From Actinomycetes bacterium (lineage in GTDB: Bacteria > Actinomycetota > CALGFH01), in NCBI GenBank assembly GCA_036000965.1, contig DASYUT010000178.1, positions 1-39,531 of the forward strand: a DNA stretch of 39,531 nucleotides. Reading direction: 5' to 3'. The notes under the pieces are model-generated. The model did no database searches and was not told the origin of the DNA. It saw only the letters and a list, made by a program, of their open reading frames with translations. Every line of letters starts with the position of its first letter. Positions within the stretch are counted from its first letter, which is position 1. The position numbers were made by a program, and so were the translations under genes. This document shows, one piece after another, positions 32,363 through 38,210 of the stretch.

Positions 32363-32881
32363 TCAGCGGGTGGCGAAGTAGGCGACGAGGGCGATGGCCG
32401 TGGCGATCACCGTCCCGAAGGCGAGCAGCGTGGGGGTGAGGCGCCTGGACGCCACCCGGCGCCTGGTGGAGACCGGCGGGGCGAGCGCACCGAACGGCGG
32501 CAGGGTCGGGGCCTGGGCCGCCGACCCGGCCACGGTGGCTGGCGCAGGCGCCGAGAGGACCGTCGGCGGCGACCCGGCCGCCTCCGGCTCCACCTCGAAC
32601 AGCGTCTCCCCGATCTCGACCCGGTCGCCCGGCACCAGCCGGACTGCGCCGTGGATCCGGTCGCCGTTGACCCGCGTGCCGTTGAGCGAGCCGAGGTCTT
32701 CGATCTCCAGACCTACGGCCACCTCCAGGCCGGTGGCCACTGGCCGGACGACGGCGTGCCGCCGGGACACCTCGGGGTCGTCGAGGGTGAGATGCGCCTG
32801 CTCGCGGCCGAGCAGCAGCTCGGAGCCGACCTCGACGCGGCGGCCGGCGAGCGGACCGTTCCTGAACACAAGCGTTGGCAT
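32363..32881 (-). CDS. Tail-anchored FHA domain protein
   Basis: A phosphothreonine-binding FHA domain (about 1-100) shows LLLGREQ, SRRHAVV, LGSLNGTRVNG and PGDRVEIGETLFEV. A Pro/Ala-rich linker follows, with a basic patch and a C-terminal membrane helix (about 153-170) that ends YFATR. The 172-residue protein would be a cytoplasmic FHA domain tethered by its tail. The ATG at 32881 has AGAGGAG eight bases upstream. It follows the Ser/Thr kinase gene by 114 bp, so it is a natural substrate or partner for that kinase. Confidence 0.88.
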   Translation of the reverse strand: MPTLVFRNGPLAGRRVEVGSELLLGREQAHLTLDDPEVSRRHAVVRPVATGLEVAVGLEIEDLGSLNGTRVNGDRIHGAVRLVPGDRVEIGETLFEVEPEAAGSPPTVLSAPAPATVAGSAAQAPTLPPFGALAPPVSTRRRVASRRLTPTLLAFGTVIATAIALVAYFATR

Positions 32882-32928
32882 CGACGCTGCTCCTCTGGCT
32901 GCGCTCCTAACCGGGTGACCAGAGGTTC

Positions 32929-32946
32929 TGTCCGTCATCACGGACA
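32929..32946. promoter_or_regulatory. Hairpin between the kinase and FHA genes
   Basis: TGTCCGT, loop CATC, ACGGACA forms a perfect 7-bp stem in the 114-bp gap. It could attenuate or process the kinase-FHA transcript. It lacks a T-tract in either direction. Confidence 0.45.
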
Positions 32947-32995
32947 ACGGCCCAGGTCGTCGGGTGGCGTTGCGGACAGGACTTCTGAGCTGCTC

Positions 32996-33847
32996 CTAGG
33001 GCTGGTCGGCGGCGACGCGCAGCATGCGCGCGAACGCGGTGGCGGTCGTGGGGCGGCGGCTGGAGTCCTTGGCCAGCGCCTGCCTGACCGCCCAGGACAG
33101 CATGGGCGACAGGTCGGCGCGGCCGGCCGCGGCGTCGGGCGGCTCCTGCTGGAGGTGGGCGACCCCAACCTCCAGGACGCTCTTGCCCGCGAACGGGGGG
33201 ACACCGGCCATGCACTCGAACACCACGCAGCCGAGTGCGTAGATGTCGCTCGGCGGCCCGGCCGGCACCCCCCGGATCAGCTCGGGCGCGAGGTAGTCGA
33301 GCGTGCCGAGCACCTGGCCGGGCCGGGTGAGAACGGTGTACGCCCGGCCCTTGGCCAGGCCAAGGTCGCCGAGCACGGCCGACCCGGCCCGGTCCAGCAG
33401 GACGTTCGACGGCTTGACGTCGCGGTGGACGAGCCCCCGGGCGTGCAGCACGTCCAGGGCCGCGCCTACCTCGGCGGCGAGCCGGAGCAGGTCGAGGAGC
33501 GGCAGCGGCCCCTCGGCTGCGAGCCGGTCGGCCAGCGACCAGCCCTCCACGTAGCCAACCGCGAGGTAGAGGAGCCCTTCAGCCTCGCCGGCCTCGAGCA
33601 CGCGGGCGAGGTGCGGGTGCGCGACCTCGGCGGCGGCCCTCGCCTCGTGCGCGAACCGGCGCCGGTAGACGTCGTCGGCGGCCAGCTCGCGCCGCAGGAC
33701 CTTGAGCGCGACGATCGCGCCATCGGGCTCGTGGACGCCACGGAAGACCACGCCCATCGCGCCCTCGCCGAGCCGAGCGTCGAGCCGGTACGGGCCGAGG
33801 CGGTCACCGGCCTCGGGGTCGCCGCCGTATTGCTTCGCTTGGCACAT
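32996..33847 (-). CDS. Soluble serine/threonine protein kinase
   Basis: A Hanks-type kinase of 283 residues with only the catalytic domain and no membrane segment. The glycine loop is GEGAMG (28-33), the ATP lysine is Lys49, the catalytic loop is HRDVKPSN (Asp143), and APE is at 187-189. The magnesium motif is DLG (161-163) where DFG is usual. The ATG at 33847 has no ribosome binding site but lies eight bases after a TATGCT box, so it is probably translated from a leaderless mRNA. It is divergent from the antiporter gene and followed by the FHA gene. Probable targets are the FHA protein and perhaps the antiporter. Confidence 0.93.
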   Translation of the reverse strand: MCQAKQYGGDPEAGDRLGPYRLDARLGEGAMGVVFRGVHEPDGAIVALKVLRRELAADDVYRRRFAHEARAAAEVAHPHLARVLEAGEAEGLLYLAVGYVEGWSLADRLAAEGPLPLLDLLRLAAEVGAALDVLHARGLVHRDVKPSNVLLDRAGSAVLGDLGLAKGRAYTVLTRPGQVLGTLDYLAPELIRGVPAGPPSDIYALGCVVFECMAGVPPFAGKSVLEVGVAHLQQEPPDAAAGRADLSPMLSWAVRQALAKDSSRRPTTATAFARMLRVAADQP

Positions 33848-33867
33848 TTGTGCGTAGCATACCGTCC
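33848..33867. promoter_or_regulatory. 20-bp divergent promoter with overlapping -10 boxes, both sides leaderless
   Basis: Only 20 bp separate the kinase ATG (minus) from the antiporter ATG (plus). On the plus strand TAGCAT (33855-33860) is followed by seven bases and ATG. On the minus strand TATGCT (33861-33856) is followed by eight bases and ATG. The two -10 boxes overlap by five bases, so polymerase can use only one at a time. Both genes lack a ribosome binding site. Confidence 0.7.
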
Positions 33868-36576
33868 ATGCAGGAGCGCTTGAACGGCGCGGAAGCCAGC
33901 CGCAAGCATGGCCCCCCCTGGCACGGCCTCCGGAGGCACGGCTCCCGCAGGCACGGCCGCCGCAGGGTCGCCCTCGCCTACGTCGTGCTCCTTGCCCTCG
34001 TCGCGGCCGTGGCGGTCGTCGTCTTCCAGGCCGGACGGCATGAGCGCCCGGCGCGGCGCGTTGCCGGCGACTACCGGCTGGACGCCGCCTCGCCCTGCCT
34101 CGGCGACCGCGGCCAGCATTTCGAGCTGCGGCAGTCGGGACAGTTCGTGAGCCTCGACGGGCCTCGCGCGCCTCAGGGGAAGCGGCCGGGGCAGGTCGCC
34201 GGCAAGCTCCGCGTCGAGGGCGACCGCGTCGAGGGCGACCGCGTCGAGGGCGCGGTCACCTGCCGCGACGGCCGGCGCACCGGGCTCACCCTCAGGGCAA
34301 CCGGCCCGGCCGCGCTCGGTGGCTCGGTCGCCGGGACCGCGGTCACCGCGACGCGCGTGGGCGGGGAGGCCGGCCCGGCCCCGCCGGGGCGCGGGCGGCC
34401 GCCGTCCGCGGAGGAGACGTTCGGCCAGCTCATGCTCGCCGTCGCCGCCGTGATCCTCGCCGCCCGCCTGGTCGGGGCGGCGGTGCGCCGGATCGGGCAG
34501 CCGAGCGTGATGGGCGAGGTGCTCGCCGGCATCCTGCTCGGCCCGACGCTGGTCCGCACCGTCGCCCCTGGCCTGTCGAACCTGCTCTTCCCCGACTTCG
34601 TGATCCCCCTGCTGCGGGCCGCCGCCAACATCGGGCTCGCCTTCTACATGTTCCTGGTCGGCCTGGAGCTCGACCCGAGGATCCTGCGCGGCCGGGTCGA
34701 GCAGGCGGCGCTGATCTCGCACGCGAGCATCGCCATCCCGATGAGCCTCGGGATCGCGGTGGCGCTGCCGCTGTACGAGCTGATCGGACCGGACACCTCG
34801 TTCGTCCCCTTCGCGCTGTTCATGGGCGTCGCCATGTCCATCACCGCGTTCCCCGTGCTGGCCCGCATCCTCCTGGAGCGCCGCATGCTGAAGCGCCCGG
34901 TCGGCGCGATCGCGATGGGCGCCGCGGCGGTGGACGACGTGACCGCGTGGGGGCTGCTCGCGCTCTCGACCGCGGTGGCCGGGACCGGCTCGGGCCTCGT
35001 CGTGGTCAGGGTGGTCGCGCTCGCGGCCGTGTTCTGTGCGACGATGGTGCTCATCGGGCGGCCGCTGCTCGCGCGGGTGTCCGACGCCTACGACGAGGCC
35101 GGGCGCGTGCCCGCCGGATGGATCGCGGCCATCTTCGTCGGCGTGCTGCTGTCGTCGTTCGTGACCCAGCGGATCGGCATCGCCGCCATCTTCGGCGCCT
35201 TCGTGATGGGCCTCATCATGCCGCGGCGGGCAGACCTCACCCACGACGTCACCAGGCGGGTCGAGGACTTCGTGGTGACCGTGCTCCTGCCGCTGTTCTT
35301 CGTGGTGACCGGGCTCCGGGTCCAGGTGGGCCTGCTGGACCGCCCCGAGCTGTGGCTGCTTGCGCTGGTCCTGCTGCTGGTGGCCATCGCTGGCAAGTGG
35401 CTCGGGGCCATGGGCGCAGCACGCTTCACCGGCTTCTCGCTCCGCGAGTCGGCCGCGGTCGGGGCGCTCATGAACACCCGCGGGCTCACCGAGCTGATCG
35501 TGCTCAACATCGGGCTCGAGCTCGGCGTGGTGTCGCCGGCGCTGTTCACGATGCTCGTCATCATGGCGCTCGTGACCACGTTCATGACCGGGCCGGCGCT
35601 GCGGCTGATCGACCCGCGCGGGGAGCTCGGCGCCCGCCCCGAGGACGAGCTGCGGGCGGCCGCGGAACCCGAGACCGAGCCACCGCCCGCGCGCGCGATC
35701 CTCGTGGCCCCCCAGGACGAGCGGAACGTCGACTGGCTGCTCGCCCTCGCGACCCCGCTGGCCAGCTCCCGGCCGGCCCGGGAGCTGATCCTCGCCCGCC
35801 TGCTCGTGCCGTCACGGGCCGCCACCGGCGTGGCGGCCGAGGACCGCGAGCTGGCACGGACGGTCGACGACCTCCACCGGCGGCGCGCCGGGCTCGTCGC
35901 CGCGGGCCTGGCCACGCGCGTGGTCGCCTTCACCTCGGTCGACCCGGGCGAGGACCTCGTGCGTCTCACCTCGCAGGAGGACGTCGACCTGCTGCTCGTC
36001 GACGGCCGCCGCCCGCTGGTCGGCGAGGGCGTGCCCCGGGGCTCGGTCGGCGCCGTGCTCCTGCGCGCCCCCTGCGACGTCGCGGTGCTGGTGGACCGCG
36101 AGCACCGGGCGTTCGAGATCGGCTCCGAGCACGCCGTGCTGGTGCCGTTCGGCGGCGCCGAGCACGACTGGGCAGCGCTCGAGCTGGGCGCCTGGATCGC
36201 CAGCGCCCGGGGCGCACCGGTCCGGCTGCTCGGGGCAGCGAGCGACCTCGCCGAGGGGCGGCGTGACGCGAGCCGGCTGCTCGGCAACGCCTCGCTCGTG
36301 CTTCAGCAGCTCGCCGGGATCGCGGCCGAGCCGCTGCTCATCGAGCCCGGGCGTGCAGGGGTCGTGCGCGCCGCCGAGGGCGCCGGGCTGCTCGTCATCG
36401 GCCTGTCCGAGCGGTGGCGCGACGAGGGGCTCGGGCCGGTGCGCTCGGAGATCGCCAGGACGGCGCCAGCGCCGACGCTCTTCGTCCGCCGCGGGGCGCG
36501 GCCGGGCGCGCTCGCCCCCCGCACCGATCTCACCCGGTTCGCCTGGTCGGAGGCGGGGCCGGGCCGCCCGGGCTGA
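33868..36576 (+). CDS. CPA2-family cation:proton antiporter with outer and stress-protein-like domains
   Basis: A 902-residue membrane protein. A basic start and one helix (about 33-52) lead to an outer beta-rich domain (about 60-160, GDYRLDAASPCLG...FELRQSGQFVSLDG...GKLRVEGD). The antiporter core (about 180-580) shows LARLVGAAVRRIGQPSVMGEVLAGILLGPT, YMFLVGLELDP, AAVDDVTAWGLLAL and MNTRGLTELIVLNIGLELGV, as in Na+/H+ or K+/H+ exchangers of the KefB/NapA type. Two UspA-like domains end the protein. A 15-bp repeat (34213-34252) codes VEGDR units in the outer domain. The ATG at 33868 is chosen because of the leaderless promoter; a GTG six codons upstream is possible. The ion specificity is unknown. 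Confidence 0.92.
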   Translation: MQERLNGAEASRKHGPPWHGLRRHGSRRHGRRRVALAYVVLLALVAAVAVVVFQAGRHERPARRVAGDYRLDAASPCLGDRGQHFELRQSGQFVSLDGPRAPQGKRPGQVAGKLRVEGDRVEGDRVEGAVTCRDGRRTGLTLRATGPAALGGSVAGTAVTATRVGGEAGPAPPGRGRPPSAEETFGQLMLAVAAVILAARLVGAAVRRIGQPSVMGEVLAGILLGPTLVRTVAPGLSNLLFPDFVIPLLRAAANIGLAFYMFLVGLELDPRILRGRVEQAALISHASIAIPMSLGIAVALPLYELIGPDTSFVPFALFMGVAMSITAFPVLARILLERRMLKRPVGAIAMGAAAVDDVTAWGLLALSTAVAGTGSGLVVVRVVALAAVFCATMVLIGRPLLARVSDAYDEAGRVPAGWIAAIFVGVLLSSFVTQRIGIAAIFGAFVMGLIMPRRADLTHDVTRRVEDFVVTVLLPLFFVVTGLRVQVGLLDRPELWLLALVLLLVAIAGKWLGAMGAARFTGFSLRESAAVGALMNTRGLTELIVLNIGLELGVVSPALFTMLVIMALVTTFMTGPALRLIDPRGELGARPEDELRAAAEPETEPPPARAILVAPQDERNVDWLLALATPLASSRPARELILARLLVPSRAATGVAAEDRELARTVDDLHRRRAGLVAAGLATRVVAFTSVDPGEDLVRLTSQEDVDLLLVDGRRPLVGEGVPRGSVGAVLLRAPCDVAVLVDREHRAFEIGSEHAVLVPFGGAEHDWAALELGAWIASARGAPVRLLGAASDLAEGRRDASRLLGNASLVLQQLAGIAAEPLLIEPGRAGVVRAAEGAGLLVIGLSERWRDEGLGPVRSEIARTAPAPTLFVRRGARPGALAPRTDLTRFAWSEAGPGRPG
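34213..34252. repeat. 15-bp in-frame repeat in the antiporter gene
   Basis: Two full units and a partial third of GTCGAGGGCGACCGC encode VEGDRVEGDRVEG in the outer domain of the antiporter. Confidence 0.85.
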
Positions 36577-36860: not shown

Positions 36861-38210
36861 ATGACGCTCGCACAGCCTCGTGACACGACGATCGCGGTGG
36901 TCGGCGACGGCTTCGGCTCCGCGCTCGTCTACACGACCGCCGTCTACCTCGGGTTCCGTCCCGAGCAGGTCACGGTCTACGGGACCAACGGCAACCCCGT
37001 CTCCACCTACCAGCAGTTCGCCTTCAACCTGGGCCAGACCGTGCTGCGGTCGGAGTCGGAGTCCCACTTCCTGCCTGCCGACTGGCCCACCTTCGCCCAG
37101 CTCGACGCCTGGTCGCGGCGGAGCCTCGCGCCGCTGCTGCGGTCGGTGCGGCGCAAGTACAACCCGGGGGTGCCCGACATCCTCGCGGAGGTGACCGCCG
37201 TGCAGCACCGGCTCGGCTGGAACGCCAGCCGGCTGCCGAGGCGGGTCGGCTGGCTCCAGCGCGAGGAGGGGCCGCCGCCGCACTTCGTCCTCTACGACGA
37301 GGACGCCAACTACGCCGGCCGCGCCAGGCACGTGATGCTCGCGCTCGGGCATGGCCCGCTGTCGTTCCCGCCCGCGCTCGCGGCGGCAAGGGACGACCCG
37401 GCTCTCGCGGACCGGGTCGTGCAGGCCTACGAACCGAAGGCCTACGCCGCCGGCGGCCGGTACGTCGTGCTCGGGGCCGGCATCGCCTCGGTGAACGAGT
37501 GGGCCAACGCGCTCGACGTCGGCGCCAAGGTCGTCTCGCTGCTGCGGAGCCCAGTCCCGGACGAGCAGGACCTGAACACGCCCCGCTGCTTCTTCGAGGC
37601 GCTCGGCATCGACGCCTACCAGGGGCTCCCGTTCGACCAGCGGCTCGAGTTCCTGGCCAAGATCCTGAAAGGCACCTCGCCGAAGCGCCGGAGCTGGGAG
37701 CAGAAGGTCCGCCAGGGACGCGAGGAGGGCCGCTTCGAGCAGCTCATGGGCGAGATCGACCGGGTCGAGGCGGGCCCGGCCGGGCTCCGCATCCACGTGA
37801 CGAGCCGCGACGGGGCAGGGCCGGGCTGGCTCGACGTCACCGGCGTGGTCGCTGCGACCGGGTTCCAGAAGCCGGCCCTCGCGCTGCCGCTGCTCCGACG
37901 CCTCATCCAGCACTACGACCTGCCCGTTCAGGAGGGCCGGCTGCTGCTGCGCGCCAACTGCGGCGTGCCCGTCCTGGACCGGCCCGATTCGCGCCTGTGC
38001 ATGATGGGGATCCACGCTAACCCGGTCGTCCCGAACGGTGACACGATCGCCGGGCTCAAGTACGTCGCCCGCCGCTTCGTGGCCGACTGCGCCCGGGCCG
38101 AGCGGCTCGCCTACCGGCCCTTCCCGGCCCGCCTGCGGCTGCAGCTCTCCCTGGCCTCGTCGGCGGCCGGGGCCATCCGCCGCGTCCGGCGCGAGGAGCA
38201 GCTGGCCTGA
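36861..38210 (+). CDS. FAD/NAD(P)-binding oxidoreductase, substrate unknown
   Basis: A 449-residue protein with two dinucleotide-binding motifs: VVGDGFGSA (13-21) for FAD and VVLGAGIAS (202-210) for NAD(P). A later [10 protein letters not shown] motif follows, and [22 protein letters not shown] lies near the end. The layout recalls flavin monooxygenases and amino-acid N-hydroxylases. The first Gly-x-Gly motif has Asp in the second position (GDGFG), which is unusual. No homologue with a known substrate comes to mind. Its stop overlaps the next gene as TGATG, so it works with that membrane protein. Its placement after a CPA2 antiporter recalls KefC-KefF pairs, though KefF is a different flavoprotein. 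Confidence 0.8.

Follow-up and report, generated by a model that had tools for sequence, protein, structure and literature searches.

A putative bidirectional leaderless promoter in the 20 bp gap between divergent kinase and antiporter genes of an actinobacterial genome

RESULTS

Organization of the locus

The window analysed is the whole 39,531 nt stretch of contig DASYUT010000178.1 (contig C178) from the high-GC genome assembly GCA_036000965.1, which comprises 6.47 Mb in 358 contigs. Within it a Ser/Thr protein kinase gene and a cation:proton antiporter gene diverge from a 20 bp gap (Table 1). The first-pass annotation of this DNA had described two divergent start codons sharing one such gap, and this is confirmed, with the kinase ATG at 33847–33845 on the minus strand and the antiporter ATG at 33868–33870 on the plus strand. 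The products named there also proved correct, as the kinase matches Pkinase (E 1.8e-45) and the antiporter matches Na_H_Exchanger (E 8.2e-54). The closest relatives of the kinase are mostly actinobacterial. Judging from the 48 bp that separate the kinase gene from the downstream FHA-domain gene, the two are likely to lie on one transcript.

Table 1. Features of the kinase/antiporter locus (positions in the window)
Feature	Position	Strand	Remarks
FHA-domain protein gene	32363..32947	-	downstream of kinase
Ser/Thr protein kinase	32996..33847	-	283 aa; kinase domain begins at residue 20
Gap between divergent ATGs, proposed bidirectional promoter core	33848..33867	.	20 bp
TAGCATA (TANNNTA), pseudo-symmetric heptamer	33855..33861	.	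common -10 region
-10 box TAGCAT, antiporter	33855..33860	+	N7 to ATG 33868; predicted TSS 33867/33868
-10 box TATGCT, kinase	33856..33861	-	CGG before box; N8 to ATG 33847; predicted TSS 33849-33847
CPA2-type cation:proton antiporter	33868..36576	+	902 aa; exchanger domain 197-578; USP-like C-terminal tail
449-aa protein	36861..38210	+	near antiporter-tail orthologues in relatives

The N-terminal region of the antiporter (window 33868–34450) has a hydrophobic segment followed by an extra segment of ~120 aa ahead of the exchanger domain, and a short in-frame repeat (VEGDRVEGDRVEG) is found in the same region. The 449-aa protein gave no match in Pfam or NCBIfam; counterparts of 61–69 % identity adjoin the antiporter module in four other genomes (G055, G531, G506 and G449).

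Geometry of the 20 bp gap

Overlapping −10 boxes had been proposed within the gap, and they are indeed present, the plus-strand TAGCAT and the minus-strand TATGCT having five of six positions in common inside a single TAGCATA heptamer. Counting the last T of each box as −7 places the predicted starts at 33867 (plus) and 33849 (minus), 18 bp apart, or 21 bp apart if both lie on the ATG; the 18 bp geometry puts the plus start on C33867 and not on A33868. Positions 33856 and 33860 act reciprocally as −11A and −7T on the two strands. With respect to −18T, there is a T at 33849 for the plus start at 33867, and the minus strand has a G at 33867 for the minus start at 33849. A scan with the consensus sigma-70 pattern revealed no convincing −35 element on either strand and no promoter-like signal nearby. 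An inverted repeat for a regulator within the gap was considered and rejected, as there is no room for one and none was seen besides the heptamer; no regulator site was identified for the gap.

The absence of a ribosome binding site from both genes, also claimed previously, was borne out, no 4-mer complementary to the anti-Shine–Dalgarno (SD) sequence being found in the 20 nt ahead of either ATG. Alternative starts in the antiporter frame are a GTG at 33850, which would leave a gap of 2 bp, and a TTG at 33880, which AGGAG shortly precedes; other starts are thus possible, and ATG 33868 is the best reading. In the kinase frame there is no alternative start ahead of the kinase domain, and no SD-led one.

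Leaderless-type starts elsewhere in the genome

Across actinobacteria, leaderless genes are marked by a TANNNT some 12 bp ahead of the start and make up a mean of 19 % of genes (PMC3160421), and in Mycobacterium tuberculosis TANNNT without a conserved −35 element lies ahead of most primary starts (PMC3898074). We scanned 973 predicted genes in 1.5 Mb of the source genome for this signature and found a peak of TANNNT at 6–9 nt ahead of candidate start codons (21, 17, 11 and 16 matches, 65 in total) over a level of ~5 matches per position at other distances; among 14,182 internal ATG/GTG codons, used as control, there were 16 matches and no peak. Leaderless starts therefore appear, from these counts, to be routine in this genome, and both boxes of the 20 bp gap (7 nt on the plus and 8 nt on the minus strand) fall inside the 6–9 nt peak.

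The genome is poor in the TA dinucleotide (observed/expected 0.47), and the 1.5 Mb contain only 86 copies of TANNNTA. In random 20-mers with the dinucleotide content of the genome's divergent intergenic regions, TANNNT stands 6–9 nt from both ends in 0.13 %, a rate some tenfold above that expected of independent boxes because a single symmetric heptamer serves both strands. Five of the 145 divergent gene pairs sampled have a gap of 11–40 bp (by longest reading frame), and in two of the 145 a TANNNTA core lies between supported starts, namely the kinase/antiporter pair and a ComA-like/AIR-synthase-related pair (L140, 2040–2064; G000:C265, 40000 + offset). The latter pair diverges across 20–23 bp that contain TACTATA, and may likewise have a bidirectional promoter of leaderless type. 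Another divergent pair, encoding a B12-dependent methionine synthase and a CAAX-protease-like protein (L137, 5069–5129), has a 59 bp gap with separate leaderless-type TACCCT boxes, each 7 nt ahead of its start. The exact spacing pattern is not enriched, with two matches in the 6.47 Mb and three for the reversed control, and the second match (in contig C111) is not between called gene starts; for these reasons the pattern alone is no evidence. The support for the site is its position between two real genes. We conclude that the 20 bp site is very probably real rather than a product of chance, on statistics drawn from a handful of cases, and that a chance origin of the two-box arrangement is unlikely.

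Conservation of the gene pair and of the spacing

The first-pass annotation had pointed to conservation of the 20 bp in relatives as a check, and when this was carried out the spacing proved to be lost. In G449 the FHA–kinase genes diverge from the antiporter gene across 68 bp containing two separate leaderless-type boxes (TATCCT N6 GTG and TAGAGT N10 GTG), and in G602 kinase and antiporter genes diverge across about 111 bp. A conserved 20 bp spacing is therefore rejected, since relatives with the divergent pair have other gaps. In the family relative with the nearest kinase orthologue (G002, ~70 % identity) the divergent neighbour is a different kinase at ~206–230 bp, so that the site is not conserved there; neither of the family relatives G001 and G002 yielded an antiporter orthologue. 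Within the order to which G055 belongs, a search with the C-terminal tail of the antiporter gave orthologues at ~50–68 % identity. Among the orthologous antiporter genes, those of the source genome, G612, G508 and G449 have leaderless-type starts; those of G531, G545, G507 and G506 are SD-led. On comparison of these sequences, the gene pair is better conserved than its promoter, and the 20 bp overlap has the look of a local compaction.

Related arrangements were seen elsewhere. In Geodermatophilus (L039, 7100–8100) a CPA2 antiporter gene diverges from a Ser/Thr kinase gene across ~250 bp, the kinase having a clear SD sequence (AGGAGG), and in G329 an antiporter homologue is divergent from an FHA gene.

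Association of the kinase with tail-bearing proteins

The closest kinase relative found in a collection of 85,000 genomes (L031, 53 %) has a divergent partner at 24 bp, and a GATAATG core stands in the corresponding register. The partner is a Trans_reg_C-BTAD protein, and its tail shares 43 % identity with that of the antiporter. In G576 a gene for a Trans_reg_C-BTAD protein with this tail forms one operon with a kinase gene, the stop codon of the former and the start codon of the latter overlapping in GTGA. The partner kinase is thus found beside the tail in divergent orientation in the source genome, G449, G602 and L031 and in the same operon in G576. The tail is rare in the phylum sample of 397 genomes, 15 of which gave a match at E≤0.001 and only four of these a match at E<1e-19.

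The USP-like tail (window 35791–36576) is thus shared with Trans_reg_C-BTAD activators of other actinobacterial genomes (L031 3459–4952 and L286 5442–6917). Each adjoins a Ser/Thr kinase gene, and the module linked to the kinase seems to have undergone a domain swap.

No account of an antiporter/kinase/FHA module came up in a search of the literature.

DISCUSSION

From the geometry of the gap, the absence of SD sequences, the genome-wide leaderless signature and the recurring divergent gene pair, we infer the two transcription start sites, leaderless translation of both genes and their co-expression. The sequence evidence leads us to propose that 33848–33867 is probably a compact bidirectional leaderless promoter of the pseudo-symmetric −10 type. 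RNA polymerase would bind the single TANNNTA heptamer in either orientation. The 5′ end of the rightward RNA would coincide with the antiporter ATG or adjoin it, and that of the leftward RNA would lie no more than ~2 nt from the kinase ATG, as would result from starts on A33868 and on the minus-strand A at 33847–33849. Both RNAs would be translated as leaderless mRNAs. At ordinary activity the two directions would fire independently, giving a low level of the kinase–FHA unit and of the antiporter, and interference between them would be expected only if one direction were strongly activated.

The first-pass annotation had held that the two genes share a leaderless promoter and that their transcription would therefore be mutually exclusive. 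A shared, overlapping bidirectional promoter of leaderless type is still the best prediction for the gap, but the exclusion does not follow. A switch of this kind would have polymerase bound one way block the other, so that the cell makes kinase or antiporter. Indeed, the −10 boxes overlap by five of six bases, so that polymerase cannot occupy the site in both orientations at once, and at some bidirectional promoters the activators of one direction can repress the other (PMC12825309). The overlap forbids double binding, however, and exclusion would follow from this only at high occupancy. At five natural bidirectional promoters of Escherichia coli, competition was seen only when one direction was strongly activated, basal activity being too low for it in all five tested (PMC12825309). 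Furthermore, G449 and G602 keep the divergent pair without the overlap, the gene with the same tail in G576 shares an operon with a kinase gene, and in M. tuberculosis two leaderless genes, prpD and that of its divergent regulator, are induced together (PMC3898074). The exclusion of kinase and antiporter transcription is thus unsupported and we regard such a switch as very unlikely; joint low-level expression of the signalling module is more likely.

A different possibility is that one direction only is real, the second −10 box being a by-product of symmetry and the other gene being transcribed weakly or from within its neighbour's coding region. Given one TANNNT the opposite box needs just one more base, as the tenfold excess of paired boxes in random 20-mers reflects, and the alternative antiporter starts at GTG 33850 and TTG 33880 would also suit such an arrangement. 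Against it, both boxes lie at distances favoured by the genome's leaderless starts, the kinase has no SD-led alternative start, and the consensus scan detected no other promoter-like signal nearby. We consider this explanation rather improbable overall, while allowing that one strand alone may be active in vivo. There is a still smaller probability that the heptamer is a chance AT-rich sequence, with neither gene leaderless and both translated in some other way from longer transcripts. The mode of initiation is not conserved, since SD-led starts make up half of those that could be read among the antiporter orthologues, and this is in keeping with such an explanation. It is nevertheless hardly credible in view of the rarity of the heptamer, its position exactly between two gene starts, and the very low frequency with which a given 20-mer carries both boxes.

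The pairings of kinase and tail-bearing proteins in L031 and G576, and of an FHA gene with an antiporter homologue in G329, favour a functional link between the kinase and the tail protein and hence joint expression; they have no direct bearing on phosphorylation. We suggest tentatively, as a possibility that we would place below even chances, that a kinase together with the USP-like tail, carried on a CPA2 antiporter or on a Trans_reg_C-BTAD activator, constitutes a conserved and previously undescribed actinobacterial signalling module, of which the 20 bp promoter would be the most compact way to keep both components in step. The recurring pairing of kinases with tail proteins may indicate an uncharacterized kinase partner domain. 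If transcription is confirmed, the gap would be near the smallest possible divergent control region, consisting of one heptamer and two spacers with the start codons at the 5′ ends of the RNAs, and it would be a clean system in which to study the joint effect of polymerase orientation and leaderless translation on the ratio of two proteins.

As a predicted promoter, the site is a compact new case of a known, recently described and widespread type. In prokaryotic bidirectional promoters −11A and −7T are reciprocally paired and the divergent start sites are most commonly 18 bp apart (PMC10268837, PMC12825309); the promoters described by Warman, Grainger and co-workers have start sites 7–25 bp apart, and −18T is common in them but not obligatory (PMC12825309, PMC10268837). 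The gap described here resembles these in its common −10 region, predicted 18 bp start spacing and −11A/−7T pairing, and in being placed to drive two mRNAs. It differs in that both predicted starts coincide with start codons, so that the intergenic region amounts to the −10 region and two spacers. With the actinobacterial TANNNT leaderless promoters (PMC3160421, PMC3898074) it shares the 6–9 nt spacing and the lack of an SD sequence and of an evident −35 element, and CGN stands ahead of its minus-strand box, a frequent feature in M. tuberculosis (PMC3898074); here, however, 20 bp hold two such promoters, overlapping in head-to-head orientation. Among individual loci, prpD (Rv1130) and Rv1129c of M. 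tuberculosis are likewise divergent neighbours, leaderless by mapped start sites. That pair consists of a regulator and its target, both starvation-induced (PMC3898074), and the likeness may not extend to overlap of the −10 boxes. The lysG/lysE pair of M. tuberculosis also has overlapping promoter motifs between divergent genes, and one lysE promoter is leaderless (PMC5648196). There, in contrast, the gap is 108 bp with a central regulator binding site, and the leaderless start belongs to a second promoter and not to the overlapping one (PMC5648196).
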